Source: Oscillospiraceae bacterium (GTDB lineage Bacteria; Bacillota; Clostridia; Oscillospirales; Ruminococcaceae). From it: 36,078 nucleotides of DNA. Below the pieces are notes generated by a model. That model did no database searches. It saw only the letters and a program-made list of their open reading frames with translations, and was not told the DNA's origin. Both the position numbers and the translations under genes were made by a program. This document shows positions 6,651 to 35,525 of this stretch, in pieces. Location: NCBI GenBank assembly GCA_017427265.1, contig JAFRTG010000025.1, forward strand, positions 1 to 36,078. Reading direction: 5' to 3'. Position 1 is the first letter of the stretch. The number at the start of each line of letters is the position of its first letter.

Positions 6651-7109
6651 TTATCGCTCAGATGCTTCCCACATATCTGCTGCCTTTTCCCGGAGCAGCT
6701 GAATTGTATTCTTATTCTCATCGATCAGATCATTGTACTCCGTTTTCTTGGATTCCAGTTTTTCATTCACCTCTATGCTGTATACTTCGCCATCCTTTTC
6801 AACCTGTACACCATAGTGATAGTCTTTGAAAACATTCGGCCATATGATCAGAGCGATTTTGTCATCCGGTGTCGCAACGCACAGATTGCCTGTGAAAGAG
6901 AGATAATCCGGCAGCTTGACATTGAAGAGATAACCGTCATCCGCGGTCAGAACATAGCTGTAGTGCTCGCGGAAGGTCTTCAGATTTTTGGTGTACCCGT
7001 TGTAGCGGATATTTCGCCAGCACAGCCAAAAAAGATTGTATAAGATAAAGGCAAGGACTATTCCGATCATAACGAACAGCCACATTTTGTTTTTCAGTTC
7101 TGCTTTCAT
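6651..7109 (-). CDS. Small membrane protein of the bacteriocin ABC locus
   Basis: A 152-residue protein: short basic N-terminus, one membrane helix (about 9-30), then an extracytoplasmic domain ending in an acidic, charged helix (about 118-150, coiled-coil-like). I do not recognise a family. The ATG overlaps the ATPase stop as ATGA, so it is the third translationally coupled gene after the membrane protein and the ATPase. Position and topology suggest an accessory subunit for bacteriocin export or a self-immunity protein; this is inference only. Confidence 0.7.
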   Translation of the reverse strand: MKAELKNKMWLFVMIGIVLAFILYNLFWLCWRNIRYNGYTKNLKTFREHYSYVLTADDGYLFNVKLPDYLSFTGNLCVATPDDKIALIIWPNVFKDYHYGVQVEKDGEVYSIEVNEKLESKKTEYNDLIDENKNTIQLLREKAADMWEASER

Positions 7110-7714
7110 AGTGTGATCAGCCTTTCTCCGCAGTTTTTGTATTTTTCATCATGCGTGACCATAATGATTGTTTTTCCGCTGCTGTGCATCGTTTTGATGA
7201 TATCAATCACAGCATCACCGTTTGTGCGGTCAAGTGAACCGGTCGGTTCATCGCAAAGAACGATGCTGCATTTTTTCATCAGGACACGCGCAAGCGCCAC
7301 ACGCTGCTGTTCTCCGCCGGAAAGCGAATATATCTTTGCATTTATTTTATTCGACAAGCCGACTTTTTCCAGTGCTTCTTCCATGCTCATACCGGAACTG
7401 TTTCCTTTGTTGATGAGCTTCAGATTCTCCTTAACCGTCTTTTCTTCAACAAGTGCAAAGTTCTGAAAGACGAAACCGACCTCTTCCCGAAGATATTTTC
7501 TTTGATTGCGTTTCACACCGATATCCAGTCCGTTTACTGTAATTTTTCCGGCGTCATAGGATTCCAGTGAACCGATCATGTTCAGAAGTGTAGTCTTTCC
7601 GCAGCCGCTTTTTCCTGAAAAAACGACAAATTCGCCGTCTTTGATTTCGAGATTCAGATCCTGAAACAAGACCCCGTCAGAGAAACTCTTCTTCAAATGC
7701 TCAATTTTAATCAT
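7106..7714 (-). CDS. ABC transporter ATPase, lactococcin 972-type bacteriocin export
   Basis: A 202-residue nucleotide-binding subunit with every core motif: Walker A GKSGCGKTT (34-42), Q-loop Gln at 84, signature LSGGEQQRVALAR (131-143), Walker B IVLCDEP (151-157), D-loop SLD and switch His 188 (VTHDE). It belongs to the MacB/LolD-like group that includes ATPases of lactococcin 972 clusters. It should hydrolyse ATP on the cytoplasmic face to drive the membrane protein encoded just upstream. ATGA overlaps occur at both ends (with 7711 and 7109), giving tight coupling. The short length without any C-terminal extension is normal for the group. Confidence 0.9.
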   Translation of the reverse strand: MIKIEHLKKSFSDGVLFQDLNLEIKDGEFVVFSGKSGCGKTTLLNMIGSLESYDAGKITVNGLDIGVKRNQRKYLREEVGFVFQNFALVEEKTVKENLKLINKGNSSGMSMEEALEKVGLSNKINAKIYSLSGGEQQRVALARVLMKKCSIVLCDEPTGSLDRTNGDAVIDIIKTMHSSGKTIIMVTHDEKYKNCGERLITL

Positions 7715-9666
7715 ATTACCGCTCCCTTCAGTGCCTTAACAGTACTGCGTTTTTCCCATGCACAGGTAGAAAACAACGTAATGCCCCAGTCAAATACCAG
7801 AATCAGAATGATTCCGGCAAGCATGTAGCCCCAAATGCCTGAGAACAAGGAAACGCCCAGACAAATGCACAGCATTCCGTTGATGATGATCGTAATCAGA
7901 TTCAGCAGGAAAAGCAGCTTGAATTTTGCAATGACGCTGTAGCCGAGGGTTGTCTTGACTGCGATCTCTGTCGCATTCGCCGTGCAGATAAACCGGACAA
8001 CCGTCCATGTCACAACAATGTTCAGGATGAGAAGTGCCATGAGCACTGCAACTGCCATCAGGGCTGTTCTCTTATAGCCCGCCAGCAGTCTCTCATAATT
8101 CGAGAGCGCATTTGTTTTGTTGCTGATTCTCTTGGAGAGATCATAATCCGCAACAAATTCGTCCCATTCAGCATCCGATAACCGAACGTGTGCTGACTGC
8201 AGAATATACATGCCGTTATAAAAATTCGTTATTCCTGCGTTGTTCAAAATAATCAGCGGATTTCTATAGTAACTTCCGGTTATACTACTGGAATCAGTCA
8301 TGCCGATCACGGTAACATCTTTTTCATATGTAATGACCTCATATTCGATATCATCCGAAAGATACATGTCAGCAAGGAACTCCAGATCCTGAGCGCCTTC
8401 CTCCTGCAGCGATTCCGGAACAATAAAACATAGCTTGCCGTTTGTATTTTGCGAACCGAGCTCCGGACATTTCTCTTTCAGGTAATCCTCAGAGCCGGAA
8501 TTAAACATCAGGCAGGGCTTCTCCGTAAAGACTCCGTCGTCCAGATATACATTCAGAAAAACGTCGCCGTTTTTTTCCTTCTCTGCGAAGAAAGATTCCA
8601 TTGCGCGCTCTGTCGATTCAATTGTTTCGTCGGCAGCGTCGGCTGAAATATAGGAATATTCCCGCAGATCTGTAAAGAAACCCTCCTCGCTTTTATATAT
8701 GACATACTCAGATATCATGGAAATAAAAGCCGTCATACTGAACACGATGACAGCAGATATGACAACGCGGAAGACATATCCGACCGCAATCGTAAACGAC
8801 CCGATCGGCGCTCTACTCAGATTTCTTTTATAATTGGTATTGTTCAGCGACAGGAACACACATGTGTCCAGCACACATAGGATTATAATAGCACAGATCG
8901 GAATTACATTGTAAAATCCGGAATGAATTCTGAATTGCTGCCGGATAAAGTGATATGCCGCCAGATATGCTGCGATAAAAAATCCGATATCGCACAAGAT
9001 GTTCTTCACTATCACAGAATAAGGAGAGGAACCCAGAATAACCCTCAGCGAGGTTTCTTTCTTGATTACGGATACCTCAAAAATGCTAATCAGTATAAAG
9101 AACAGCAACCCCACCATCCATATGGCAAGGATGTTTCTTCCGGCATGCAGATATGTGTAACCTTCGTTCGGAAAATTGCCGCTGTATTTGTCTATCAGTG
9201 CGGATTTGAAGTTTCTCGCATCCGCCATATTTCCAATGAAATAAAAACTGTCGATCCCGTTCATATCCGGGATGCTGCTGAAATTGTCGAACCGAAGTAC
9301 GGTATCGCCGGTCAGAATGCTGTGATATTCTCCCTCGGATAAGCTGCTGTTTTCCTCCAGCGTTTTGCGCACGCCTTCCGTGCCATAGACCGTTATCTCC
9401 GTTTGATAAGATGATTTCAGTTCTCTGACGACTGTAAAGATTTTGAGGTTATTCAGTGCCGCTTCCCGTTCCAGATCTGCTGTCATTTCTGCCGATGAAA
9501 CGTCAGGCGGCAAGTACATTGTCGTCCGGATATATTCTGTTTCAAAACTGTCCATATTCAGCAGATACATCTCACAGGTAAAGACCATGACAACTGCAAG
9601 AAACAGGACGTAGATAATGTATTTTAACGTTTTCAAGCGCATCACCCGGATTAAATATTTTAGCAA
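7711..9666 (-). CDS. DUF1430-like bacteriocin-associated integral membrane protein
   Basis: A 651-residue multi-spanning protein: an N-terminal helix (about 12-32), an external domain, a bundle of helices (about 180-330), a second external domain (about 335-535) and three C-terminal helices (about 545-640). That FtsX/MacB-like layout matches the membrane proteins that accompany lactococcin 972 bacteriocins and are annotated as putative immunity or export permeases. The ATPase follows with an ATGA overlap. The start is uncertain: the frame opens with TTG at 9666, just past the intergenic hairpin and without a ribosome site; ATG at 9642 (MRLKTLKY) is the alternative. Family call is from architecture plus context. 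Confidence 0.8.
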   Translation of the reverse strand: MLKYLIRVMRLKTLKYIIYVLFLAVVMVFTCEMYLLNMDSFETEYIRTTMYLPPDVSSAEMTADLEREAALNNLKIFTVVRELKSSYQTEITVYGTEGVRKTLEENSSLSEGEYHSILTGDTVLRFDNFSSIPDMNGIDSFYFIGNMADARNFKSALIDKYSGNFPNEGYTYLHAGRNILAIWMVGLLFFILISIFEVSVIKKETSLRVILGSSPYSVIVKNILCDIGFFIAAYLAAYHFIRQQFRIHSGFYNVIPICAIIILCVLDTCVFLSLNNTNYKRNLSRAPIGSFTIAVGYVFRVVISAVIVFSMTAFISMISEYVIYKSEEGFFTDLREYSYISADAADETIESTERAMESFFAEKEKNGDVFLNVYLDDGVFTEKPCLMFNSGSEDYLKEKCPELGSQNTNGKLCFIVPESLQEEGAQDLEFLADMYLSDDIEYEVITYEKDVTVIGMTDSSSITGSYYRNPLIILNNAGITNFYNGMYILQSAHVRLSDAEWDEFVADYDLSKRISNKTNALSNYERLLAGYKRTALMAVAVLMALLILNIVVTWTVVRFICTANATEIAVKTTLGYSVIAKFKLLFLLNLITIIINGMLCICLGVSLFSGIWGYMLAGIILILVFDWGITLFSTCAWEKRSTVKALKGAVI

Positions 9667-9670
9667 ATGA

Positions 9671-9704
9671 AAAGGGGAACCCAGGCCATTCTGAGTTCCC
9701 CTTT
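9671..9704 (-). terminator. Intercistronic hairpin between bacteriocin and transporter
   Basis: AAAGGGGAACcCAG (9671-9684) pairs with CTGaGTTCCCCTTT (9691-9704), one mismatch, ending in CCTTTT on the minus strand. It lies 8 bases after the bacteriocin stop and 5 bases before the first possible start of the membrane protein. It probably works as a leaky terminator or RNA stabiliser, giving much bacteriocin mRNA and less transporter mRNA. Confidence 0.7.
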
Positions 9705-9711
9705 GTTCATT

Positions 9712-10083
9712 TTAATAGTACATATAATAGCTTACAGAGGTGCCCCTGTGTGTGACATCAACTCTCGAAAGCTTACCGCCGGCCTTAGCGGATCCGGTGT
9801 GCCAGCCCTTGGCGTTCTTCAGTGATGCGTAGTGTGATTTTGTGTCGTGACTTGCCCAAGCATAGTCTTCATCAATTGCAAAGGTGTTAAAACCGTAGGT
9901 CAGAACGCCCAGGCCGTCATCAGCTTCTTTGTAGCGTTCCCAATCATCGCTGAACGAGCTTGCACTGGCAGAAACGCTGTCTGCTGCAGATGCACAAATC
10001 GTTGCCGGGACCATCAGAGAGCAGGCCATCACGATGCTTACTGCGGCTTTTGCCGCGCGACTGAAATGCATGCGCTTTTTCAT
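9712..10083 (-). CDS. Lactococcin 972-family bacteriocin precursor
   Basis: A 123-residue secreted peptide. Residues 1 to about 34 form a Sec signal peptide (MKKRMHFSRAAK, hydrophobic core, ASAA cleavage). The mature ~89 residues show the family pattern: a YG near the start of the conserved part (LTYGFNTF), aromatic/Ser/His stretch (SHYASLKN), KGWHTGSAKAGGKLS, and an aromatic C-terminus (SYYMYY). Lactococcin 972 blocks septum formation through lipid II in susceptible cells; the target here is unknown. ATG at 10083 is fixed by AGGAGA 8 bases upstream. The immediate DUF1430-like and ABC genes support the call. No cysteines are seen in the mature part. Confidence 0.85.
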   Translation of the reverse strand: MKKRMHFSRAAKAAVSIVMACSLMVPATICASAADSVSASASSFSDDWERYKEADDGLGVLTYGFNTFAIDEDYAWASHDTKSHYASLKNAKGWHTGSAKAGGKLSRVDVTHRGTSVSYYMYY

Positions 10084-10103
10084 TTTTTCTTCTCCTTTGA
10101 CAG

Positions 10104-10170
10104 TGGTGTGTTTGGTGTGTTGTGAGTTTGTTGCGTGTGTTGAGTTTGTTGAGTGTGTCGTAATAGTTGA
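10104..10170 (-). repeat. C/A-rich repeated leader of the bacteriocin mRNA
   Basis: On the minus strand the leader is almost free of G and built of repeated CAACAAACTCA and ACACAC units; CAACAAACTCA occurs twice. It runs between the promoter region and the Shine-Dalgarno site. A/C-rich leaders stay unfolded and can enhance ribosome loading; a slipped-strand origin is plausible. Confidence 0.55.
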
Positions 10171-10187
10171 GTCGGTTGAAAAAATAC

Positions 10188-10236
10188 CCTGATCAGGAGT
10201 GATTATCATTATACTACATGATCTCGTAAAATTCAA
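10188..10236 (-). promoter_or_regulatory. Bacteriocin promoter with possible operator
   Basis: Minus strand: TTGAAT (10236-10231), 17-base spacer, perfect TATAAT (10213-10208). Just downstream, around the expected transcription start, is the perfect palindrome CCTGATCAGG (10188-10197), a possible repressor site. Confidence 0.65.
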
Positions 10237-10439
10237 TGAAAAAAACAATAATTTACAAAAAATTCATAATTACATGTTATACTAAACAATATGTAAAAAA
10301 CAGGCCGGAGGCGCCGGTCAGCGAAAATCGCGTAATATTAAGATAAAAACATATTATAGGCATTCTGTCCTGTGCTTTATGATACCGGCAGTTATATTGA
10401 TGCAAATGACTGTTTTCGGTCATTGCCGCAATTTTAGCA

Positions 10440-12819: not shown

Positions 12820-12846
12820 GAATCCCCCGGCTTCGCCGGGGGATTC
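12820..12846 (-). terminator. Terminator of the serine recombinase gene
   Basis: A perfect 12-bp GC-rich stem, GAATCCCCCGGC at 12820-12831 and its complement at 12835-12846, TTC loop. The arm overlaps the recombinase stop codon. With 12783-12814 it separates two convergent transcripts and marks the left edge of the mobile element. Confidence 0.65.
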
Positions 12847-14413
12847 AGATTTTCCAGTGAATATGTATCTCCCGCTCGCCGTTCTCATCGGTCATGCCGA
12901 TCTCGACGCAGTCAATAAACTCGTCCGCAACTGTACGGTCCAGCGTATCAAAATGCGTGTACCGCTCGATCAGTGCCTTCTGTCCCGCCGCGTTTTCCAT
13001 GCGTTCGCGGGTTTCGGCAATCTGCTGCTGTATCTCGTCGATGCGCCGTGTGAGTGCCTGCTCCTCGCCTGCAAGACTCTGACGGAACAAAGTATAATCT
13101 GCATCAGAGATCATGCCGTCCAGTTTGTCTTTGTACATCTGCACAAGCCGTTTTTGCGCGGATGCCTGCTTTTCGCTGAGCTTCGCAGCGCTGCTTTCCA
13201 GTGCGCGAAGCTGCTCCTCATAGTGATTCGTGAATCGGATCTCATCTGCCTGACAATACTGCGAAATGATGTTGTTCAGCTCATCCAGGATGGTCTGTTC
13301 AAGCACCTTTCCGCTGATTGTGCGGACATTCGGGCAGTTCATGGCTCCGGTCTTGTACGTCGCACATTGCAGCCCGTAGTATTTGATTGTCTTGGTTTTA
13401 TTATAGTATACATTCCGTTTCATCGGTCTGCCGCAGACGGCACAGCGAACCTTGCCGGACAGCGGCGAAAGCTCCTGCATCCGGCTTCCGACGCGGGTAT
13501 TGCTGTTCAGGCGCGCCTGCGCTCGCGCCCATGTATCTGCATCGATGATTGCCGCGTGCGCGTTCGGGATGCGTACCCATTCTGCCGGATCGACCTTTTT
13601 GCGGCGCTTGTTCTTGTAGCTGATGTGATGCGATTTTCCCTGCACCAGCGTGCCGGTATACATCTCATTCGCAAGCATTCGGGCAATCGTTGACTGCGTC
13701 CACAGCCCGCGTGCGTTGCTGCTGTCAGCATTGCAGTTCGTATATCGCGAACCACTCTGCCGCTTGTATGCACTTGGGCTTGCGATGCCTTCGCTGTTCA
13801 GCTTCTGCACAATATGCCGGTAACCTTCGCCACTGGCATAGAGTTCAAAAATCAGTCGCACAACCGGTGCGGTTTCCGCATCAATGATAAGCCGGTGCTT
13901 GTCAGCAGGGTCAATTACGTAGCCGTAGGGCGCAAAGGAACCGATAAACTGCCCCTGTTCGCGTTTATAGGCCAGCGTGCGTCGGATTTTCGAACTGATA
14001 TCCCGAACATACATTTCGTTGTACGCGCTCGTGAATAGGCGCAGGGTTCCGTAACCCTCGTTGTCGGTATCTGCGTTGTCCGCAACGCCGATGAATCGGA
14101 TGCCCCATTCCAGAAATTTGTCGTTCAGATACTGCTCAATGACCACAGTATCACGCGAAAAGCGGCTCTGATCCTTGCAGAGGACAATGTCAATATTGCC
14201 CTGCTCGCAGTCACGGAGCAGCCGGTTGAATGCAGGCCGGTTGCGGTCAATGCCGCTGAACCCGTCGTCTGCGTAGATATCGAAAATCTCCCAGTTTCGC
14301 TCCAAACAGTATTCACGCAGCATAGCTTTCTGGTTCTGGATGCTCTGGCTCTCTACGTCGCCCTTATCCCTGTCCTCGATCGACAGGCGGCAATATATTC
14401 CGACTTTTGGCAC
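12845..14413 (-). CDS. Large serine recombinase (site-specific integrase)
   Basis: A 522-residue large serine recombinase. The resolvase-type catalytic domain (1 to about 145) has Ser11 in YCRLS, and Arg84/Arg87 in QSRFSRD. A recombinase domain (about 160-270, GSFAPYGYVID) is followed by a zinc ribbon (CAVCGRPM ... CATYKTGAMNCPN) and a long coiled coil (about 375-460) that controls synapsis. It excises and integrates the element. Start: a GTG at 14413 eight bases after GGAGG; a GTG at 14422 overlaps that ribosome site. The terminator hairpin overlaps its stop. Size and domain order are those of an intact enzyme. Confidence 0.92.
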   Translation of the reverse strand: MPKVGIYCRLSIEDRDKGDVESQSIQNQKAMLREYCLERNWEIFDIYADDGFSGIDRNRPAFNRLLRDCEQGNIDIVLCKDQSRFSRDTVVIEQYLNDKFLEWGIRFIGVADNADTDNEGYGTLRLFTSAYNEMYVRDISSKIRRTLAYKREQGQFIGSFAPYGYVIDPADKHRLIIDAETAPVVRLIFELYASGEGYRHIVQKLNSEGIASPSAYKRQSGSRYTNCNADSSNARGLWTQSTIARMLANEMYTGTLVQGKSHHISYKNKRRKKVDPAEWVRIPNAHAAIIDADTWARAQARLNSNTRVGSRMQELSPLSGKVRCAVCGRPMKRNVYYNKTKTIKYYGLQCATYKTGAMNCPNVRTISGKVLEQTILDELNNIISQYCQADEIRFTNHYEEQLRALESSAAKLSEKQASAQKRLVQMYKDKLDGMISDADYTLFRQSLAGEEQALTRRIDEIQQQIAETRERMENAAGQKALIERYTHFDTLDRTVADEFIDCVEIGMTDENGEREIHIHWKI

Positions 14414-14447
14414 TGACCGCACCTCCTTCCGTTTGAGCAGGCTGGGT

Positions 14448-14696: not shown

Positions 14697-17105
14697 TCAA
14701 CTGTTTTGCGGTGCGGCGGAATCGTCTTCGATAAACGATGCCAGCTGACCGCTCAGCGTACTTTGGATATTCCGTCCTTCCTTTTTGCTGTAGAAAGCCG
14801 TTTTTATGATCGCATCGCCGCGCTGCATCGAATCAAAGCGAGCGGTATCGCCCTTTTTGAACCGGAGCTTCGCTGCAACAGCAGACTCCGAATTCTGCGT
14901 AGGCCGCAAAATCAGCTGCGTATCCGCCTTGCCCATGGCCTTCCCAAGCTCCGTGTTGCTCGGATAATAATCCTGAGTTGAGCCGATGAAGGAGATGAGG
15001 GAACGCCGACCTTCCTTGAGGATGCGGCAGATCGGGCTGCCTTCCGCGAAGTTCTGATTCTGAACTTCATCCAAGACGAGATCAAGCGGAATTCCCGGTT
15101 GCTCCCTTTGGTATCTGAGGAGCGTTTCGAGGAGCATGTCGATTAGCTGATCGCCGCGCTCCGAACTACCGGAAGCCGTAGAAATCACAATGATTTTTCC
15201 TGCGTTCTGCCGCAGCAGCTTGCCGGCAACCCGACCGGATGCGTCACAAAGCAGCGGGATAAAATCACGTTCCGGGATTTCGTCCGGAGCAAGCCAGAAC
15301 TGTTCGCTGTCGATGTTGTGCAGCAGGTGCAGCATATCGTCATCCAGCATGGATGCATCCATGCAGTACCAGTAGAGTCGCTGGGACTTCCCGGTGAGAT
15401 CGTAGACCTGAATCGGTTTGGTTTGTCCGTCCGTCGCATGCAGCAAATCATTTTGCCGCAGCGCAGCGAGAAGACTGCTTCGCATGTGCGCTGTTTGTGC
15501 AGAACGCAAAATGCTGTCAACCAGTCCGCCGCAGATATAAAAGTGGTCGCCATCGACCAGGATCGTATCCTGTTTCGGATCAATACGCACCTTCTGCTGT
15601 TTTTGCACTGCGGCGATTTCTCCGTTTCGGATGCTTTCGCTGAGAATCGACGCAAAGTCCTGAATCATCATCTGATCTGCGGACACTGCTGAACGACTGA
15701 CCTGATAAATAGCACCCAGTTGTACCTTCAGCTCATCGTCGCTGAGCAAACCGTGCTGACAAAATTCCTCGAGAAATTTCTCTGCGCTCATGAAAAGCGC
15801 TGCAGAATCCGATACCGGTCTGTCAAAAAACTGCTGCCAGTAAGGCGGAAGCGCTTTGCAATTGTCAAGATACTTGCGTCGCTCCTGTTCCGGGATGCGC
15901 TGCATCGTTTGAATGACAACAGCATCCAGTGCCTGAACGATCTGCCGGATGATCCCGCAGTCAAGGTCAAGCGCCACGCCTTCCATTGAGACGGAAAGAA
16001 CATTCTCTGCCGCTATCCGCTGCACTGCATAAGGAGCAAATCGCGAAATTAACGCAATCGAATTGCGGCCGTTTCCGGTACCTCCGCCAGCTTCCTTAAT
16101 CAGAAGGCGCAGCGGCTCTTCGATTTTGTCGGATTCGTCTGCAAACGATGAATCGGTGAAAACAGCAATTCCGTCCCACACCAGATTGAGTTCGTTCAGC
16201 AGAACCTTCCGGCTGCTTTCAATCCCCGGAATGCGATGCAGCTGCGTATCGTTTGTGCTGAGCAGAACGCCCAATTTCTCCTCGCTCACGCCAGCAGAAG
16301 GCGTAACAATCAGCAGCGAATAGCTTCTGACCCGAATCGGTTCAAGCCAGAACATCAGCAGGCTGCCGACTCGCTGCAGAAGCAAGAGCCGAATGAGCGG
16401 ATGCAGTGCATCCACGGCCTGCCACAACCGCTCTGAAGGAATTAGAGCGGTTGAATCAGACATGGGCAGCCGGACGCGCAAGCTTTCAGAAATGAGGTCC
16501 TGGGGAATCTGCGATGCGTTCGGATTTGCCGCGAAAACGACAGTGCCGTCAGCCAGCGGAATGAATCCCTGACGTGGAAATACTGTTATCGTAATCGTCG
16601 GCGCATTTGCAAGCAGGAGACCGATCAGATCATTGGCCTGACTTTTGGTGCAGCCGGGCAACCGTTGAACGTGGTCAAAGTGCTTTGTAAAGCGCTCGTT
16701 GATGTAATCATCAGCCGGAATATACGCGGTATATGCCGCGTCGACAGAATAGCTGACCACAGCACCGCGAACGCTGCCTCTATCGGGATCGGTGATGACA
16801 ACGACCTGTGAGATAGTGAATCCGTTGGTCAGCGGAATACGCTTCCGCGGATTGCCATTTACACTCTGCAGTTCGAACCATGCGTTCTGCAGTGCATCGA
16901 GATCGTAGGTTCGGGCACAGTTCCTCATCTCAGGAGCAGGTCGGCAAGCATCTCTCCATCTGAAGGAGTTGCTCTCCGTGCCGCCCCCGTAAGGGGACGG
17001 CATGACAGGTGAAACCGGAAAACCGGTCGGGTTGTTTTGCTGATAGCCGCTCAGTGACACATTATTCCACTGCGGCTGACTAGCCTCAAAATCAAAAATG
17101 CTCAT
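14697..17105 (-). CDS. Large ATPase-like protein of the mobile element (HerA/TraG-like C-terminus)
   Basis: An 802-residue protein. Residues about 640-770 resemble HerA/FtsK/TraG motor ATPases: Walker B-like LDLVLDEVQNQ, then EGSPICRILKEGRRSLISF with an arginine-finger-like GRR and a sensor segment IGSTQDYY, as in coupling proteins that pump DNA. Residues about 230-400 resemble a second ATPase or DUF927-like helicase core, with IVTPSAGVSEEKL where a Walker A would be and GGGTGNGR later. No intact GxxxxGK[ST] is visible in either half, which is unusual. N-terminal 60 residues are Pro/Gly/Asn-rich. ATG at 17105 follows AAGGAGG. It should aid replication or transfer of the element; exact role unknown. 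Confidence 0.6.
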   Translation of the reverse strand: MSIFDFEASQPQWNNVSLSGYQQNNPTGFPVSPVMPSPYGGGTESNSFRWRDACRPAPEMRNCARTYDLDALQNAWFELQSVNGNPRKRIPLTNGFTISQVVVITDPDRGSVRGAVVSYSVDAAYTAYIPADDYINERFTKHFDHVQRLPGCTKSQANDLIGLLLANAPTITITVFPRQGFIPLADGTVVFAANPNASQIPQDLISESLRVRLPMSDSTALIPSERLWQAVDALHPLIRLLLLQRVGSLLMFWLEPIRVRSYSLLIVTPSAGVSEEKLGVLLSTNDTQLHRIPGIESSRKVLLNELNLVWDGIAVFTDSSFADESDKIEEPLRLLIKEAGGGTGNGRNSIALISRFAPYAVQRIAAENVLSVSMEGVALDLDCGIIRQIVQALDAVVIQTMQRIPEQERRKYLDNCKALPPYWQQFFDRPVSDSAALFMSAEKFLEEFCQHGLLSDDELKVQLGAIYQVSRSAVSADQMMIQDFASILSESIRNGEIAAVQKQQKVRIDPKQDTILVDGDHFYICGGLVDSILRSAQTAHMRSSLLAALRQNDLLHATDGQTKPIQVYDLTGKSQRLYWYCMDASMLDDDMLHLLHNIDSEQFWLAPDEIPERDFIPLLCDASGRVAGKLLRQNAGKIIVISTASGSSERGDQLIDMLLETLLRYQREQPGIPLDLVLDEVQNQNFAEGSPICRILKEGRRSLISFIGSTQDYYPSNTELGKAMGKADTQLILRPTQNSESAVAAKLRFKKGDTARFDSMQRGDAIIKTAFYSKKEGRNIQSTLSGQLASFIEDDSAAPQNS

Positions 17106-17247: not shown

Positions 17248-17380
17248 TCCGCTTATTGACTCGGATTTTGAACCTCGGCTCCTTTCTGCAGCAAAGAGCG
17301 TGGTTCTCGGTTCGAGCTTTGCGCTTTGCGCTTGGCTCTGACTTCAGTATACCATGAACGGATTCATTTTCACACGACAA

Positions 17381-17406
17381 GACAAGACATTGACATCTGT
17401 CTTGTC
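17381..17406 (+). promoter_or_regulatory. Perfect inverted repeat in the leader of the 333-residue gene
   Basis: GACAAGACA (17381-17389) and TGTCTTGTC (17398-17406) flank TTGACATC and end 7 bases before the Shine-Dalgarno AAGGAGGA. It may be a DNA operator or an RNA hairpin that can mask the ribosome site. Confidence 0.55.
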
Positions 17407-17425
17407 AGATCTAAGGAGGAAGACT

Positions 17426-18427
17426 ATGAAAAAAGCAACCGAAAAGCATGCAACGATGTTTTCGATTTATGCCCAAATGCTGTATCCCTTTTTTGACTGG
17501 AACTTCGATGCAACATCTGGAAAAATAGGCGGAAAAGGACTATTTACACGGATTCTGCTGACAGCCGGACTGGACGAAAATGCCGCGAATTGTGTTGACT
17601 ATATTGAAGATTTATCCAATGACGCACTCTTGAAGTTTTTCAGAGGCGCTCGAGAGGTTTCTAACGTAATGAAGCTTTCAAAGACAGCCTTTAATCGTGA
17701 CCTTTTTCTTAATTTCATATACGACAGATTTGAAAACAGTTTTGAGGACATCAGCGATTCGTTTAGAAAATACGGCATAAAATTCACACCAAACGATGTC
17801 CCGTATATAACATTGGAATTGTATTGCCAGATTTATGACAAAAATACGGAAAGCCCTCATAAAGACTCAAAGGTGTCTGAAAAGACAGAAAAAGAGGCAG
17901 AGCTTGAATTTGCAGCTCTGCTGAAAAAAGCGATTGAAAATTACATGGCATCACCGGAAAACACAAATGCTCAGGCATATCCGCTGCCTGAAGTGGAATC
18001 GTCCGCAGAGGCATCTGTTGAAATTACAGATGAACGCTATTCCAAGGCTGCCGAAACGGTAAAAACGGATATGCAGGACATGGAGCGTATCCTGCATGCT
18101 CTTCAGGATCTCATGATGAAAATGATTTCTATGGGAGCGGAGCTGCGATTCAACTATGAAAAAACGGAGCCGAGATTTAGTGCTGTTTTTAAGGAGTTTT
18201 GGAGTTATAATACAGCACTGCGGTCGTATGTAAAAAAATACCCTCAAATCTTGGCGCTTCAGGAACTATACGGTTGCGGCGATGCATTAACAATACAAGA
18301 CTTTATGGTTGTTTCTCCTCAAGAAAGAGATTGCCACCTCTCGAAAAAGCTGACAGAATACACAAGACTATTTGAAGAGATGACAAGGCATGCTTACACA
18401 TTGGACGATCTCATGCACATGTCCTAA
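17426..18427 (+). CDS. Unknown 333-residue helical protein of the mobile element
   Basis: I do not recognise this protein. It is predicted helical and soluble, with no signal peptide and no membrane helix. Residues 1-150 form one block; 150-200 is a charged, low-complexity linker (KDSKVSEKTEKEAELE then Pro/Glu/Ser-rich); 200-333 is a second helical block with coiled-coil character. ATG at 17426 is set by AAGGAGGA at 17413-17420. It is transcribed away from the ATPase gene from a mirror-image promoter. As the only plus-strand gene in the left half of the element, it might be a maintenance, entry-exclusion or defence protein; this is speculation. Confidence 0.7.
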   Translation: MKKATEKHATMFSIYAQMLYPFFDWNFDATSGKIGGKGLFTRILLTAGLDENAANCVDYIEDLSNDALLKFFRGAREVSNVMKLSKTAFNRDLFLNFIYDRFENSFEDISDSFRKYGIKFTPNDVPYITLELYCQIYDKNTESPHKDSKVSEKTEKEAELEFAALLKKAIENYMASPENTNAQAYPLPEVESSAEASVEITDERYSKAAETVKTDMQDMERILHALQDLMMKMISMGAELRFNYEKTEPRFSAVFKEFWSYNTALRSYVKKYPQILALQELYGCGDALTIQDFMVVSPQERDCHLSKKLTEYTRLFEEMTRHAYTLDDLMHMS

Positions 18428-18470: not shown

Positions 18471-18510
18471 ACAGGTGCCCTGCCGATAGTGAAATCGGCA
18501 GGGCACCTGT
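18471..18510. terminator. Bidirectional terminator between convergent genes
   Basis: A perfect 17-bp stem (18471-18487 with 18494-18510) with a loop of 6 lies between the stop of the unknown plus-strand gene and the stop of the minus-strand amidotransferase at 18512. Confidence 0.75.
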
Positions 18511-18511
18511 A

Positions 18512-19471
18512 TTATAGCTCTGCCAAGGCCTGTTCTGCACTGTAATTCTCGGGATACATAAGGTATTCCTCGATCTCCGTATACGAATACCCTAACTCTC
18601 GCAAATAGCAGATGGTTTCCGGGTCAGCGCCATAGTAACCGCACAGCTCAATCAGCAGCAAATAGTCCTCGTCGGAGCAGCTGCCTTTTTCGGGCTTGTC
18701 CCAGTCACAGAGGCAGCTGCCGAACCAGCCGTGACTGTAAATATGGTAATCGTTTTGTACGGTGTAGCTGCTGCGGATGATCTTGCCATCCGGCGAAATC
18801 CGGAGCATCTCCCCTTCTGTTAGTGTAACCACTTCGTACTTTGGGAACCGCACCGGTATCTGCTTGAATGCTGCAGTCATGATCTCTTTTGTTGAGCAAT
18901 AGATGTACAAACCTAGCGCGGGGAAGTGAATCAGGAAGAGCGGGCTTTCTCCCTTAACAAAGTAGAGGTTGTTCTGACGATCCAGAAGCGTAAAAGTAAA
19001 ATATCCCCGAACTTGCTCGGCAGCATACCGCAGGGATTCAAAGCTCAGTTCTTTCCGGGCTTCAATCAGTTGCACGGCAATATACGAGTCGGTTTCGATC
19101 TGCGTTTCCGGCAGCCGCAGCTTTGAACGCAGCGTCGTATCATTATATATTATGCCGTTATGCGCAAGTGCAAACTCGGTTCCGGCTTGTCCGCGGAACG
19201 GATGGTTGTTATAGTTATGCTTTTGGTCGCCCTGCGTGGTGAGCCGGGTGTGCCCCATCACAGCTGTCGTATTTTCCGGTATGCGGAAATGCAGCTTGTG
19301 TGCGGGCTTCGGTCGCTTGAAAATTGTCAAGGCTTCCTCCTTATTATATGCGATTCCGGCAGCATGATGGCCGCGCACCTCAGATGCATTTGCAAGTGCC
19401 TGCACAAGTTTTTGCAGCGTCCGTGCCGGAACGCGCCTGCCATAGTCTAAAAATCCAAATAAAGCGCACAT
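18512..19471 (-). CDS. Class II glutamine amidotransferase (Ntn hydrolase)
   Basis: A 319-residue protein of the Gn_AT_II fold. Start at 19471 gives MCALFGF, so Cys2 becomes the N-terminal nucleophile once Met is removed; AAGGAGAT precedes it. Further glutaminase motifs are present: RGHHAAG (33-39), GHTRLTTQG (73-81), HNGIIYN (104-110) and ETDSY (126-130). It should release ammonia from glutamine, or act as an Ntn amide hydrolase. No synthetase or isomerase domain follows; the last ~80 residues are acidic. It is the fourth gene of the DUF960-amidoligase operon, which suggests that it supplies ammonia or trims a product for the amidoligase. Such pairs are known from comparative genomics, not from a defined reaction. 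Confidence 0.88.
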   Translation of the reverse strand: MCALFGFLDYGRRVPARTLQKLVQALANASEVRGHHAAGIAYNKEEALTIFKRPKPAHKLHFRIPENTTAVMGHTRLTTQGDQKHNYNNHPFRGQAGTEFALAHNGIIYNDTTLRSKLRLPETQIETDSYIAVQLIEARKELSFESLRYAAEQVRGYFTFTLLDRQNNLYFVKGESPLFLIHFPALGLYIYCSTKEIMTAAFKQIPVRFPKYEVVTLTEGEMLRISPDGKIIRSSYTVQNDYHIYSHGWFGSCLCDWDKPEKGSCSDEDYLLLIELCGYYGADPETICYLRELGYSYTEIEEYLMYPENYSAEQALAEL

Positions 19472-19473
19472 TT

Positions 19474-19629
19474 CTATCTCCTTTCCCATGGCGATTTCTC
19501 GTCATCTGTGATTTTCAATATCATGCGGATCAAATATCCGATGACTTGGATTGCAAACCAGATGCCGCCAACTTTGGCATTCCCGTTTGCCATACTCGAT
19601 TTATGCGGGGCGATAATGTGCTTCATCAT
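19474..19629 (-). CDS. 51-residue single-helix membrane peptide within the amidoligase operon
   Basis: Short frame fused tightly into the operon: its ATG at 19629 overlaps the amidoligase stop (ATGA) and its TAG stop sits 2 bases before the amidotransferase ATG, so it carries that gene's ribosome site (AAGGAGA). The peptide has a basic N-terminus (MMKHIIAPHKSS), a hydrophobic helix (about 21-39, GIWFAIQVIGYLIRMILKI) and an acidic/basic tail ending KSPWERR. I know no family. Because an amide-bond-forming enzyme and a glutaminase flank it, it might be their substrate, their membrane tether or simply a coupling ORF. The spacing makes it very likely to be translated. Confidence 0.65.
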   Translation of the reverse strand: MMKHIIAPHKSSMANGNAKVGGIWFAIQVIGYLIRMILKITDDEKSPWERR

Positions 19630-20714
19630 ATATCATCCTCCGTTTCGATCTCCTCGTTGATATAAAGCTGTCGCTCCTTGAGATATTGGAGCAGCTCAGG
19701 TTCGGTGATCGTCATTACAAAGTCGCGCCATGATTGCTGTGCGATCTCTTCTTCCGACATATAAAGTGCCGCATCACAAATTTTGTTGACCAACTGCAAC
19801 GTGGCGTAGAGCGTGTTCAGTTTGAGCGTGCCGCGGAACAGCCGGAACTCGATTGTACTATAATTACACAGGTTGACAGCGGCGTATCTTCCAACATTGC
19901 CTTTCTTTGCTTTATCCAGGATTTGCTTGCCGGTTTTCTCGATGCCGTACCGGGCTGCCCAGCGGTTCATACTGTGCGGGCTTCTTCGCGAGAATGTGAA
20001 CAATTCGTTCCAATGCAGCTCCGTGAAGAAGAGGATACGCTCGACCACTTTCTCCTGTTCTTCGGGCGTATCGCCGAATGCATCGCGGTTCACATGTACA
20101 TGCAGGCCGCACGTATTCGTCATATGTGAACGATACCCCATATGGATTGCCTCCCGTAAAATGTCCTCCCAGTACATGCAAGTCATGTGGTATTCCAGCG
20201 TCATCGGATGGGTTACGATCTCAAAACCGTCGTCAAGGCTGCCGTCCGACTTGCAATAGATGTGTTCGCAGCGGATGTTGGTCTGCTTTTTGATGCGGGC
20301 AGCACTTTCATCGTATTTTCCGGCGCCGTCGATTTCCAGCTCGACACCGAAATAGCGGCTGCCGTCGCCGTAAAATATCGGGTCCGGCTTGTAGGAATAG
20401 TCCTCGATCTCATTTTCGATGCGATCGTAGCAGCTTGAGCAGTAAGGATAATCGCGGCTCCACAAAATATCATCTTCATGCAGGATGCGTCCGCAGCAGT
20501 CACAGCGCCGGTAGTGATCGTCAAAGCAGCAGGAGCAAAGCGTTGTTTGCTCGTCCGCAATCGCATCATTGCGCCAGATCGTTTCTCCGCAATGGTCGCA
20601 CTGTACGGTGTGTTCTTCTGCACAGCTGTCACATATCAGTTCATTGTCGATTTCGGTGTGCTCGTCATCATCCAGCACACAGCCGCACATCGAGCAGATT
20701 CTTTGTTCTTCCAT
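19626..20714 (-). CDS. Amidoligase (Amidoligase_2 family) with N-terminal zinc ribbons
   Basis: A 362-residue fusion. Residues about 7-105 hold four zinc-ribbon-like knuckles (CSMCGC, CDHCG, CSCC, CDCCG, CSSC). Residues about 120-320 form the amidoligase: FGVELEID (122-129, glutamine-synthetase-like metal site), DGSLDDGFEIVTHP (158-170), CGLHVHVN (202-209) and NYSTIEFRLFRGTL. These enzymes are predicted to join a carboxylate to an amine with ATP, like GCS2/glutamine synthetase. ATG at 20714 follows AGGAGGT; the TTG frame further up is not needed. A stop overlap starts the 51-residue gene. The zinc ribbons may bind nucleic acid or the substrate protein. Substrate unknown. Confidence 0.85.
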   Translation of the reverse strand: MEEQRICSMCGCVLDDDEHTEIDNELICDSCAEEHTVQCDHCGETIWRNDAIADEQTTLCSCCFDDHYRRCDCCGRILHEDDILWSRDYPYCSSCYDRIENEIEDYSYKPDPIFYGDGSRYFGVELEIDGAGKYDESAARIKKQTNIRCEHIYCKSDGSLDDGFEIVTHPMTLEYHMTCMYWEDILREAIHMGYRSHMTNTCGLHVHVNRDAFGDTPEEQEKVVERILFFTELHWNELFTFSRRSPHSMNRWAARYGIEKTGKQILDKAKKGNVGRYAAVNLCNYSTIEFRLFRGTLKLNTLYATLQLVNKICDAALYMSEEEIAQQSWRDFVMTITEPELLQYLKERQLYINEEIETEDDI

Positions 20715-20746
20715 TTTTTTACCTCCTGAAACAGCACATAAGAATT

Positions 20747-20766
20747 GCCCCGCCAATCGGCGGGGC
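20747..20766 (-). terminator. Hairpin between DUF960 and amidoligase genes
   Basis: A perfect 8-bp stem, GCCCCGCC (20747-20754) with GGCGGGGC (20759-20766), loop AATC, lies 2 bases past the DUF960 stop and is followed by AATTCTT on the minus strand. It probably partly terminates transcription, lowering amidoligase mRNA relative to DUF960. Confidence 0.55.
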
Positions 20767-20767
20767 T

Positions 20768-21052
20768 TCAGTATTCTTCTGCAAGTAACATTGTTGAATG
20801 GTCATCGTCATCAATGACATAAATTTTCGCAGTGATCGGCTCATCTGCCGGGATCATGCAGAGCATACTGTATTCCGGCTGCTCGGATGTGTGCCGAATC
20901 TGCTGCATTCCGCCGAAGGGTTCCAGCCGGAAAACCTGCAAGTAGTCGCATTCTTCAGGCAGACGATCAATGCACTGCCATAAAAACAGCTGCAAATAAT
21001 CCGGTATAGCCGCAGCGACACCGGCGGTCAGGTAACGCTGGTTGTTGAACAT
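20768..21052 (-). CDS. DUF960-family protein
   Basis: A 94-residue cytoplasmic protein with the hallmark N-terminus of DUF960, MFNNQRYLTAGV and then LQLFLWQCIDRLPEECDYLQVFRL. The family is frequent on mobile elements of Firmicutes and has no known role. The last third is acidic (VIDDDDHS). ATG at 21052 follows AGGAG 8 bases upstream. It is first in the minus-strand operon with amidoligase, mini-protein and glutaminase. It may be an antirestriction-like or regulatory factor. Confidence 0.7.
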   Translation of the reverse strand: MFNNQRYLTAGVAAAIPDYLQLFLWQCIDRLPEECDYLQVFRLEPFGGMQQIRHTSEQPEYSMLCMIPADEPITAKIYVIDDDDHSTMLLAEEY

Positions 21053-21200: not shown

Positions 21201-21286
21201 GAAGAAATGAGGGATGTGGACGGCAGTTGCAAAAAAAGAAGCAAAAAGGCGCATTTTCGTTGGATGAAAGGGGGGTGAAAAATGAC

Positions 21287-21315
21287 TTGTATCACAATTT
21301 GCATTACAATATGAT
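21287..21315 (+). promoter_or_regulatory. Promoter of the mobilization genes
   Basis: TTGTAT (21287-21292), 17-base spacer, TATGAT (21310-21315). The MobC-like start lies about 85 bases downstream. Confidence 0.5.
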
Positions 21316-21357
21316 AAGAGCGAGCGAAGCGAGAGACCTGCAAAATAAGAATATTAT

Positions 21358-21377
21358 GATTATCATAGGCGATAATC
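21358..21377 (+). promoter_or_regulatory. Inverted repeat in the leader of the MobC-like gene
   Basis: GATTATC (21358-21364) and GATAATC (21371-21377) flank ATAGGC, a perfect 7-bp dyad 10 bases before the Shine-Dalgarno AGGAGGA. It is a likely operator of the ribbon-helix-helix protein encoded next, or a second oriT arm. Confidence 0.45.
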
Positions 21378-21400
21378 AGAATAAACAGGAGGATTATTCC

Positions 21401-21673
21401 ATGGCAAGAGATAAATCTGAACAAAAAACGGTCAATACATCCATACGATTGACCGCAGAGCAGAAAAATGAGTTTGAAAAGCGTGCGAAAGCAATGGGTA
21501 TCAAGCCGAGCAGTTACATTGTAAACGCAGCTTTTCATGCAGATGAACTGAAACCGGAAACGAAAGTGAAGATGCAGAACATTCTCAATCTCACGGAAGA
21601 AATCGTGAGAGAATATGCACCGGAAAAGCTGGAGGAGCTGAAACAGAAAGGAGCAGAAATATGGTACTTTTGA
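21401..21673 (+). CDS. MobC-like ribbon-helix-helix mobilization protein
   Basis: A 90-residue basic protein. Residues about 12-55 read as a ribbon-helix-helix: TVNTSIRLTAEQKNEFEKR and then KAMGIKPSSYIVNAA. The remainder is a charged helix. Such relaxosome accessory proteins bind oriT and help the relaxase load. ATG at 21401 follows AGGAGGA at 21388-21394. Its end overlaps the relaxase start by 13 bases. Its dyad-containing leader suggests that it also represses its own operon. Confidence 0.75.
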   Translation: MARDKSEQKTVNTSIRLTAEQKNEFEKRAKAMGIKPSSYIVNAAFHADELKPETKVKMQNILNLTEEIVREYAPEKLEELKQKGAEIWYF

Positions 21674-33197: not shown

Positions 33198-35525
33198 ATG
33201 AAAGCGAAAAAAATTGCCGCTGTTTTCGCGGCAGCAATGACGCTTTCTGCGGTATGCAGTACCGGGCTGCCGCAGCTGGGTGTCATGCAGAACGGGATCA
33301 CCGTTTGTGCAGCTGATTATCAGAACGGCACAGAAGCCTATCTGACGTATCAGCTCTTCACGGACCGTGCAATCATAACAGCCTGTGAAAAATCAACGGT
33401 CGGCGCTGTCAGAATCCCGGAAACGCTCGGCGGAAAACCGGTTGTTGCAATCGCAGAAAATGCATTCAGCAACTGCAAAAAGATCACATCCGTCGATATG
33501 CCCACAAGTCTGCTTGCCATTGGGGATCAGGCATTTGCAGGCTGTGAGAATCTTTCCGCCGTCAAGCTGAACGAAAAGGCCAGAAACATCGGAAAGGGCG
33601 CCTTCAGCGGCTGCCCGTCTCTGACGCGGATTGCCCTGCCGGACAGCGTTACGGAAATCGGTACCGGCTGCTTCAAGAATGACTCTGCGCTTGCGACTGT
33701 GGGGATCGGCGCAGGGCTGACTGCGGTTCCGGAATCCGCATTTGAGGGCTGCACGAGCCTTGCAAGACTCGATCTGCCGAAAACGGTCAAAACGGTCGGC
33801 AAAGCTGCGTTCCGCGGCTGCAAAACGCTGACTGCTGCCAATTTCTACGCAGGTCTGCAGCGCATCGGCGCACATGCCTTTGAGGACTGCACAAGCCTCA
33901 GCAAGATCACGCTGCCGGATACCGTGCTTGAACTGGAACAGTCCGCATTTGAGGGCTGCTCGGCTCTGAACAGCGTGAAATTCTCCAAGAATCTGAAATG
34001 GATCCCGATTTCCGCCTTCAGCGGCTGCACACAGCTGAAGGAAGTCGAGCTCCCTGAAAAAGTCACAACGATTGATGCGTTCGCATTCTACGGCTGCAAG
34101 TCGCTCTGCGCCCTGACAATGCCGGACGGCATCACTGAAATCGGCTCCTGCGCGTTCAAGGACTGCGCTGCACTGCAGACGCTGCAGATTCCGAAAAAAA
34201 CCGTCACGATCGGCAACAGCACCTTTGAAAACTGCACCGGGCTGCTCTCCTGCATTCTGCCGGACGGTCTGACGTCGCTCGGCGTCAATGCATTCGGCGG
34301 CTGCAGCAGACTCGGCGAAATCGCACTGCCGGATACCGTCGTTACAATCGGTGCAAATGCTTTCCGTGAATGCACCGCGCTGAAAAAAGCAAAGCTCTCC
34401 GATAAGCTGACCTCCATTCCGGCACAGGCATTCTATAAGTGCAGTGCGCTGACTGAGATCACCGTGCCGGATAATGTGACCGGCATTGCCGCCTATGCAT
34501 TCTTCGGATGCAGTTCGATGACTGCGCTGAAAATCGGCGACGGCACCGTTACAATCAAAAACAGCGCTTTCCAGGAATGCGGAAAGCTGACCGATATTTC
34601 CTTCGGACGCAATCTTGTCACAATCGGCTCCGATTCCTTCCGCGACTGTAAGTCGCTGAAAACGCTCAATCTGCCAAACAGCCTTGAAACCTTGGAGATC
34701 CGTGCGTTTTACGGCTGCGACGCGCTCGAAAGCGTCGCCCTGCCGGAGCTGCTCACCGTATTGAACGAGGGTGTATTCTACAACTGCCTGTCGCTCAGAA
34801 CGCTTGATATTCCTGCAAATATCAGGCAGATTGATGCAGATGTATGCTATTACTGCACCGCGCTGGAATCCGTCATCATCCGGAATCCGCAGTGCAAAAT
34901 CTATGAAGCGGACAGCGTGTTCGCCAACCGCTACAAGACGCACAACGCAAAGATCTACGCACCGAACGTCTCCTATGCAAAGAGCTATGCCGATACATAC
35001 GGCTATGCATTCAGCGATCTTTCCAATGCACCGGCCGCACCGTCGGTGCCTGCTGTGACAACTGCTCCGGCACCGGTCACAACGGCGCTCACAACGACAA
35101 CAACTGCGGCTGCCACGACTACGGAAGCAGCAACCACAACCGTCACAACCACGACGACCACCGCTGCTGAAACAACCGCGACGACGACTGAAACGACGAC
35201 AGCCGAGACAACGACGGCCGAAACGACCGTGTCCACGCTGCCCGGCGTATCGAAACAGGTCTATATGCGCGGCGACATCAACAACAGCGGCAAGATTGAC
35301 GCACTGGATTCGCTGCTCGCACTGAGAGCATACGTCAATACGTTCATCGGACTTGACCCGAATCTCAGTGAGCCCGCACGCACGGCAACCGACGTAGATC
35401 AGGACGGACGGATTACGCTGACTGACGCGCAGTTCATTCTGCGGTATTATGTGTACAATACGATCCTGAAATACAATATTTCATGGGATATGATGTTCCT
35501 TGCAGCAAAGCTGAAGCTGCTTTGA
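33198..35525 (+). CDS. BspA-type LRR protein with type I dockerin
   Basis: A 775-residue secreted protein. Signal peptide (about 1-38, ending VCA-AD). Residues about 60-600 are tandem LRR_5/BspA repeats (LPDSVTEIGTGCFKND type). A Thr/Ala-rich linker (about 620-690) leads to a dockerin (about 695-760) with two calcium loops, GDINNSGKIDALDSLLALR and DVDQDGRITLTDAQFIL. Dockerins plug into cohesins, so the protein should dock to a scaffoldin or cell-surface cohesin rather than be anchored by sortase. Likely role: binding substrate or neighbours within a cellulosome-like complex. ATG at 33198 follows AAGGGAAGGG at an unusually long distance of about 14 bases. Confidence 0.9.
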   Translation: MKAKKIAAVFAAAMTLSAVCSTGLPQLGVMQNGITVCAADYQNGTEAYLTYQLFTDRAIITACEKSTVGAVRIPETLGGKPVVAIAENAFSNCKKITSVDMPTSLLAIGDQAFAGCENLSAVKLNEKARNIGKGAFSGCPSLTRIALPDSVTEIGTGCFKNDSALATVGIGAGLTAVPESAFEGCTSLARLDLPKTVKTVGKAAFRGCKTLTAANFYAGLQRIGAHAFEDCTSLSKITLPDTVLELEQSAFEGCSALNSVKFSKNLKWIPISAFSGCTQLKEVELPEKVTTIDAFAFYGCKSLCALTMPDGITEIGSCAFKDCAALQTLQIPKKTVTIGNSTFENCTGLLSCILPDGLTSLGVNAFGGCSRLGEIALPDTVVTIGANAFRECTALKKAKLSDKLTSIPAQAFYKCSALTEITVPDNVTGIAAYAFFGCSSMTALKIGDGTVTIKNSAFQECGKLTDISFGRNLVTIGSDSFRDCKSLKTLNLPNSLETLEIRAFYGCDALESVALPELLTVLNEGVFYNCLSLRTLDIPANIRQIDADVCYYCTALESVIIRNPQCKIYEADSVFANRYKTHNAKIYAPNVSYAKSYADTYGYAFSDLSNAPAAPSVPAVTTAPAPVTTALTTTTTAAATTTEAATTTVTTTTTTAAETTATTTETTTAETTTAETTVSTLPGVSKQVYMRGDINNSGKIDALDSLLALRAYVNTFIGLDPNLSEPARTATDVDQDGRITLTDAQFILRYYVYNTILKYNISWDMMFLAAKLKLL

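Follow-up and report, generated by a model that had tools for sequence, protein, structure and literature searches.

We analyzed a stretch of 36,078 nucleotides from an Oscillospiraceae bacterium (assembly GCA_017427265.1, contig JAFRTG010000025.1), hereafter called the window, and found on its minus strand an operon that pairs two putative amide-forming enzymes with a very small hydrophobic protein. The gene calls were rechecked on the window sequence, and the order is a DUF960 gene, a gene for an amidoligase (AL), a 51-residue open reading frame (ORF), and a gene for a stand-alone class II glutamine amidotransferase (GAT-II). The original prediction for this DNA had proposed this four-gene order with tightly coupled junctions, and both junctions proved exact: AL and the 51-residue ORF share an ATGA overlap at 19626-19629, and the ORF stops 2 bases before the GAT-II ATG at 19471. 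For AL, an ATG behind AGGAGG is the preferred start, an alternative TTG at 20756 being less likely, and GAT-II may start farther upstream, at 19489. This anatomy is secure, and the features are collected in Table 1.

Table 1. Features of the operon and of its surroundings in the window
Feature	Position	Strand	Basis
DUF960 gene, 94 aa, at the start of the operon	20768..21052	-	PF06124, 90.5 bits, E 1e-25
Terminator/attenuator-like hairpin in the DUF960-AL spacer, GCCCCGCC-GATT-GGCGGGGC	20747..20766	-	Read from the sequence
Amidoligase_2 gene (AL), 362 aa, three CxxC-x17-CxxC zinc pairs and a GS-fold ligase domain	19626..20714	-	Pfam, 31.7 bits
51-aa hydrophobic ORF, exchangeable slot protein, type 3	19474..19629	-	Homologous gaps, dN/dS
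Stand-alone class II glutamine amidotransferase (GAT-II), 319 aa	18512..19471	-	GATase_6, 54.8 bits
17-bp perfect inverted repeat directly 3' of the GAT stop, ACAGGTGCCCTGCCGAT ... ATCGGCAGGGCACCTGT	18471..18510	-	Read from the sequence
Divergent NikA-like ribbon-helix-helix (RHH) mobilization protein	21227..21673	+	PF21983, 29.7 bits
MobA/VirD2-type relaxase, 157 aa	21661..22134	+	PF03432, 57.9 bits
Large serine recombinase, likely the element integrase, downstream of the operon	12845..14422	-	PF07508, 97 bits; PF00239, 91 bits
802-aa protein, recurs downstream of the operon	14697..17105	-	Same cluster in 34/124 loci, window included

The enzyme assignments of the original prediction held. 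AL matches Amidoligase_2 (PF12224) above the curated cutoff of 22 bits, and it has the glutamine synthetase (GS)-like fold and the conserved ligase residues of that family. Its zinc modules are three LIM-like pairs N-terminal to the ligase domain; the fold comparison gave rows for the ligase domain, which filled the list, and none for the zinc N terminus. We regard AL as a predicted ATP-dependent amide ligase. GAT-II starts with Met-1 and Cys-2, and Cys-2, Arg-76, Asn-105, Gly-106, and Asp-128 were invariant in 19 sequences; by comparison with GlmS and PurF, we take these to be the catalytic cysteine and the glutamine-binding residues. The GAT domains of PurF and GlmS were matched at an E value of about 1e-8, and GAT-II is intact, with catalytic-type residues conserved. 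PADLOC models gave no match at E 0.01 for DUF960, AL, the 51-residue ORF, or GAT-II.

The small ORF is a regular part of the gap between the two enzyme genes, which we call the slot. Among homologous operons there were 65 distinct AL-GAT gaps of 61 to 300 nt, every one with a small ORF, 53 of the hydrophobic class and 12 DUF4314-like (100.6 bits with the DUF4314 profile for one of the 12). This class counts 53 members in the ORF and hydrophobicity analyses, 52 in pair identities, 51 in the search for mini-ORFs after GAT, and 49 in the tree. Each of the 53 distinct hydrophobic-class gaps is bridged from end to end by a single ORF, compared with 2.9% of shuffled gaps, and a chance ORF was rejected on this ground; the recurrence of a small membrane-like ORF between the two enzymes, which a neighborhood check had been proposed to reveal, was thus borne out. 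All 53 gaps have a Shine-Dalgarno-like motif ahead of the GAT start, and 46 of the operons have one within the end of the AL gene. The ORFs range from 26 to 65 codons (median, 55), and 52 of the 53 proteins contain a 17-residue hydrophobic stretch, versus 21% of shuffles of the same proteins and 8.6% and 0.2% of windows in the two enzymes.

The window's own slot ORF has one hydrophobic stretch, with a best 19-residue Kyte-Doolittle mean of 1.77, and since Gln, Arg, and Lys lie along this stretch, the description "membrane peptide" in the original prediction is likely but marginal. The ORF had no Pfam or NCBIfam match over the curated cutoffs and none in PHROGs or PADLOC, and the slot proteins that were scanned (the window's and ten each of several kinds) gave no match to a toxin family. 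Within types, the slot ORF is under purifying selection: ratios of nonsynonymous to synonymous substitution (dN/dS) for window-type ORFs were 0.04 to 0.10 in five of six type-mate pairs, namely, those with dS defined, and the pooled polymorphism ratios (pN/pS) of the hydrophobic types, in groups chosen by eye, were 0.12 to 0.48. When the types were compared by eye, we found no residue common to all, no conserved C terminus, and no conserved modified position or leader in the style of ribosomally synthesized and posttranslationally modified peptides. The ERR(D) tail of the window's type was rejected as a conserved motif, being the GAT Shine-Dalgarno sequence read in frame, and weak homology links between types are not to be trusted because of the hydrophobic bias.

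The slot protein is exchanged: its type can differ from one operon to the next even where the two enzymes around it are about 90% identical. Over 1,326 pairs of 52 operons, the identities of AL and GAT correlated at 0.91, whereas the slot protein correlated with either enzyme at about 0.4. For 25 operon pairs with GATs 90 to 95% identical, the median slot identity was 54% and the minimum 14%; for three pairs with GATs at least 95% identical, it was 91 to 98%. At the nucleotide level, the pair L149/L173 showed 83/78/85% identity over the last 300 nt of one enzyme gene, 40% over the slot, and 86/84/95% over the first 300 nt of the other. This comparison was ungapped and covered 13 hand-chosen pairs, and its AL bins of 22 to 35% (L005/L007, L002/L005, and L155/L177) are length-shift artifacts. 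On a tree of 125 operons (FastTree, no support values shown), a minimum of 6 changes in slot state and 16 in slot type is needed.

Where all parts of the element are present (27 loci), the relaxase covaries with the RHH protein as one module (0.88), and DUF960, AL, and GAT form a second (0.73 to 0.91), although the DUF960 link weakens to an r of 0.24 to 0.31 in a 21-locus Ruminococcus flavefaciens subset. The slot protein belongs to neither module (r, 0.18 to 0.43), and its values with relaxase, RHH protein, or DUF960 (r, 0.18 to 0.33) gave no clue to a partner.

The two enzymes also occur together without a slot ORF. The original prediction had held that homologous operons lacking the small ORF would count against it, and this came true in part, as many lack it, including the second operon of the window's genome (contig C33), in which AL and GAT lie 2 bases apart with no ORF between; the enzymes therefore seemingly do not need it. 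Mini-ORFs were found at other positions as well. A hydrophobic ORF of 25 to 37 residues lies directly 3' of GAT in 11 of 12 DUF4314 operons, and such a mini-ORF follows GAT in 1 of 48 slot-ORF operons, in 13 of 72 operons in which AL and GAT abut (nearer 11, since an internal stop splits AL in L068 and L070 and each is counted twice), and in 21 of 666 cases after other long ORFs. Some single cases in the abutting operons may be chance, and the comparison set of other long ORFs contains spurious ORFs. A hydrophobic mini-ORF that recurs in at least two loci was present in 19 of 77 abutting operons, either upstream of AL or after GAT, a count that overlaps the 13 of 72; those upstream of AL probably sit before DUF960, judged by distance. 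The remaining abutting operons had no recurring mini-ORF, and therefore the part is common but looks dispensable. The association of DUF4314 in the slot with a mini-ORF after GAT suggests that the operon favors having one. In one locus (L041), tandem AL genes precede a single GAT with a small ORF in each gap, the first gap having been judged by eye.

The operon belongs to a mobile element, as had been predicted, because relaxase, NikA-like, and serine recombinase genes accompany it (Table 1). The window contains both a relaxase and a likely integrase, as expected of an integrative mobilizable element, and the relaxase is near the usual size for its cluster (median, 169.5 aa in 50 loci). DUF960 lies upstream of AL in all 36 slot-ORF loci with more than 3.5 kb of upstream flank. 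Where the flank sufficed, relaxase/RHH genes accompany 32 of 36 slot-ORF loci versus 1 of 23 operons with DUF4314 or an empty slot, a count that left out 19 of 80 loci with a short upstream flank and 2 without GAT; with the short-flank loci included, the figures were 39 of 47 versus 2 of 30. Among nine DUF4314 operons with enough flank, eight have a serine recombinase downstream, eight have DUF960 downstream, and six have a DUF1643 gene. Thus, two element families appear to carry the AL-GAT pair, relaxase elements with the slot ORF and a recombinase/DUF960/DUF1643 set with DUF4314; these associations are raw counts in which shared descent is still included.

Scans of related genomes located AL in 13 of 30 from the genus, 31 of 297 in a family sample, 31 of 394 in an order sample, and 12 of 398 in a phylum sample, the last with a strong full-length match in three, the window's own included. 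When named genomes were scanned, 462 of 475 stretches were relatives; the best 80 of these, which were kept, come mostly from R. flavefaciens, other Ruminococcus, and rumen or gut Oscillospiraceae. R. flavefaciens XPD3002 carries at least five operon copies (L145, L150, L154, L169, and L188), and three of its slot proteins are 91 to 95% identical. The window's genome also has, on contig C32 (L001), a canonical Amidoligase_2 protein (196.7 bits) beside ORFs that by eye resemble gamma-glutamyl cyclotransferases, which are named in the relevant part of PMC3485107 as other gene company of the amidoligase family. In viral contigs, single-sequence searches with AL and GAT found no relatives; an alignment search did find relatives.

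Two inverted structures flank the enzyme genes. The hairpin between DUF960 and AL may set the DUF960:enzyme ratio. Among the DUF960-AL spacers listed, all 22 of at least 48 nt fold (z, -2.0 to -5.2) and the 8 of 17 to 36 nt do not; both sides were changed at four of seven pairs in 12 chosen sequences, with a small covariation term (-0.17). The form of the hairpin is kept across many elements and its sequence is not. The inverted repeat after GAT is likely to be the end of transcription. As to neighboring genes, the 802-residue protein downstream had no Pfam match and no solved relative below E 0.5, its one weak match being DndH-like (E 0.0014). Beside it, on the strand opposite to the operon, a 357-residue gene (17354-18427, plus strand) partially matches the Lamassu LmuA model (44 bits, residues 36 to 189), and in some other elements of the family this position holds a different opposite-strand gene (cluster 12, 11 loci). 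Farther away, a mediterrocin-family (Lcn972-like) bacteriocin gene (9712-10248, minus strand; NF052268, 125 bits with a cutoff of 40) heads a set (7106-10248, minus strand) continued by a 651-residue protein without a Pfam match and an ABC ATPase; in the published mediterrocin cluster, as outlined in PMC12345188, a DUF1430 protein with seven helices is accompanied by an ABC protein. Large leucine-rich-repeat proteins of the BspA type are encoded at 3274-6135 (minus strand) and 33198-35525 (plus strand), and one of the two carries a dockerin domain.

Based on these observations, we infer that the operon encodes a glutamine-dependent amide ligase with an exchangeable membrane-targeting accessory, as a backbone module of an integrative mobilizable element, and we give this reading a probability of roughly 40%. 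The class II amidotransferase would free ammonia from glutamine, and the GS-fold AL would join it, using ATP, to a carboxylate. The slot protein would most likely anchor the two enzymes at the inner membrane or direct them there, and their targets could be lipid-linked cell wall precursors or carboxylate-bearing membrane proteins; a cell envelope carboxylate is the most likely substrate, and the benefit might be a host surface altered to the disadvantage of competing phages or elements. In most operons the slot would work as a plug-in site, the ribosome-binding-like motif in the AL end serving the slot ORF and the slot ORF supplying the next motif for GAT. An adaptor is favored because what recurs is a hydrophobic mini-protein and not a particular sequence, and because the enzymes occur without the mini-protein; a membrane adaptor is favored because lipid II is the target of MurT/GatD, a known amidating ligase of two chains.

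Several results weigh against this reading. In many homologous operons the slot ORF is missing and no hydrophobic mini-ORF was detected close by, which makes the accessory look dispensable, and the rather weak covariation of the slot protein with AL or GAT (r, 0.37 to 0.43) is unusual for a tight subunit. The membrane span is marginal: a crude membrane insertion score was positive in 53 of 53 slot proteins, and a 19-residue mean of at least 1.6, the stricter test, was reached in 37 of 53. Divergent slot pairs have dN/dS of 0.41 to 0.92 with near-saturated dS, which therefore permits no statement on selection across types. Besides, 79 of 90 AL rows from viral contigs had no GAT found by the queries used, and the slot counts therefore do not describe phages.

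The weak covariation with all element parts would also fit a slot protein that is unlinked cargo, that is, a toxin-like, holin-like, or phage-response membrane peptide in a handy expression slot, with the job of the enzymes unrelated. The slot likewise accepts a DUF4314 protein, which lacks a hydrophobic stretch, and phage UFV-P2 has an HNH endonuclease between its amidoligase and amidotransferase. Against mere cargo, a hydrophobic mini-ORF follows GAT in 11 of the 12 operons whose slot holds DUF4314, and no scanned slot protein matched a toxin family; we consider this explanation rather unlikely. We are similarly doubtful of a fully three-part system, in which the zinc finger AL and GAT-II would be joined by an interchangeable mini-protein that sets the target of the pair or is modified by it to become the product, unrelated-looking types being swapped as a cassette by way of a dedicated slot.

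Peptide-modifying systems often combine constant enzymes with variable precursors. The slot protein could accordingly be the substrate itself, amidated at an acidic side chain or the C terminus to give a modified membrane peptide acting as a weapon, signal, or immunity factor: the enzymes are constant, the slot peptide is variable and exchanged, its gene lies between and is coupled to both enzyme genes, and other operons have a different hydrophobic mini-ORF beside the same pair. Yet the types share no residue and differ at the C terminus by eye, the one shared tail, ERR(D), comes from reading a Shine-Dalgarno sequence in frame, for many AL-GAT pairs such a peptide was not detected, and no exporter is a regular neighbor (of 36 clusters listed, most of them unannotated, one was ABC-transporter-like by eye, in 6 of 124 loci). 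This makes the possibility quite unlikely; of the roles that had been suggested for the mini-protein, substrate and product carrier are thus left without a conserved residue or C terminus, and tether fits better.

LIM-like zinc modules usually bind proteins. The presence of such modules in AL, together with slot segments that are marginal for a membrane span, would suit a substrate outside the envelope, namely, a soluble small molecule or an element transfer protein, with the slot protein as a structural helper such as an ammonia channel bridge. We consider this improbable, as a bridge would be expected to covary with its partners, which the slot protein does only weakly, and as AL and GAT abut without it in many operons. 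Finally, entry exclusion by a resident element, with the slot protein as specificity factor, would suit a hypervariable ORF that goes with relaxase elements (a count that includes shared descent), but it is highly improbable and its simplest form, in which a type excludes its own type, was rejected, contradicting the entry control offered in the original prediction, because similar slot types share genomes more often than expected (mean identity, 0.39 in 28 within-genome pairs versus 0.27 in 638 between-genome pairs; permutation P, 0.0008), as do the three near-identical slot proteins of XPD3002.

Whichever role the slot protein has, AL and GAT form a module that recurs in the backbone of mobilizable elements of Ruminococcus from rumen and gut, and some genomes carry it several times. 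Natural versions whose mini-protein is different, absent, or moved can readily be compared with one another in the search for the substrate. Should the mini-protein set the target or be the product, it would represent a new kind of cassette on mobile DNA, one of exchangeable specificity or for peptide modification. The open-library literature searched yielded no report of a slot with exchangeable mini-proteins or of these elements as a family, other papers lying outside that search.

The enzyme pair itself is not new to mobile DNA. The sections on these genes in PMC10580990 and PMC5498523 describe AL and GAT-II pairs in phiEco32, LUZ24-like, RIO-1-like, and Marvin-like phages and in OM43 phages; because of these, the claim of the original prediction that such a cassette is unexpected on a mobile element was too strong. 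As cited in PMC10580990, PMC11318856, and PMC5498523, Iyer et al. (2009; dated 2002 in section 16 of PMC5498523) predicted that phage AL and GAT alter the cell wall and stop superinfection, and in the relevant passages the phage papers name the pair as likely cell wall modifying or metabolite making, its function still being called open. As in the window, Amidoligase_2 lies near GAT-II on a mobile genome, and in a Marvin-like phage the genes are adjacent, by the account given there. The window operon differs from the phage pair in its three LIM-like zinc pairs, its DUF960 gene, and its exchangeable hydrophobic mini-ORF, and it is carried by a relaxase/integrase element, not a phage. With the phage peptidoglycan modification cassette it shares the placement of AL next to GAT-II, whereas the ATP-grasp protein, second amidoligase, and cyclotransferase of that cassette were absent from the 29 window ORFs scanned with Pfam, as was a COOH-NH2 ligase.

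Similarity to cellular ligases is more distant. YbdK/glutamate-cysteine ligase 2 and glutamine synthetase showed 8 to 14% identity to AL in the fold comparison rows, and the NCBIfam model gshA_cyan_rel scored 12.3 bits on AL against a cutoff of 176.4. The MurT/GatD lipid II amidating complex is likewise a two-gene, glutamine-dependent amidating ligase, and this comparison is one of working principle only. GatD is a class I amidotransferase. Because of this, and because MurT is a Mur ligase relative according to the abstracts that describe the action of MurT/GatD on lipid II, the chains are not homologous to AL and GAT. The staphylococcal cassette chromosome ccr complex includes DUF960 and DUF1643 proteins, as described in part of PMC10581047. 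The window element differs from it in having a relaxase and in a recombinase that scores 136 against the 900-bit CcrB cutoff; those relatives with the order AL-DUF4314-GAT-DUF1643-recombinase-DUF960 resemble the ccr complex.

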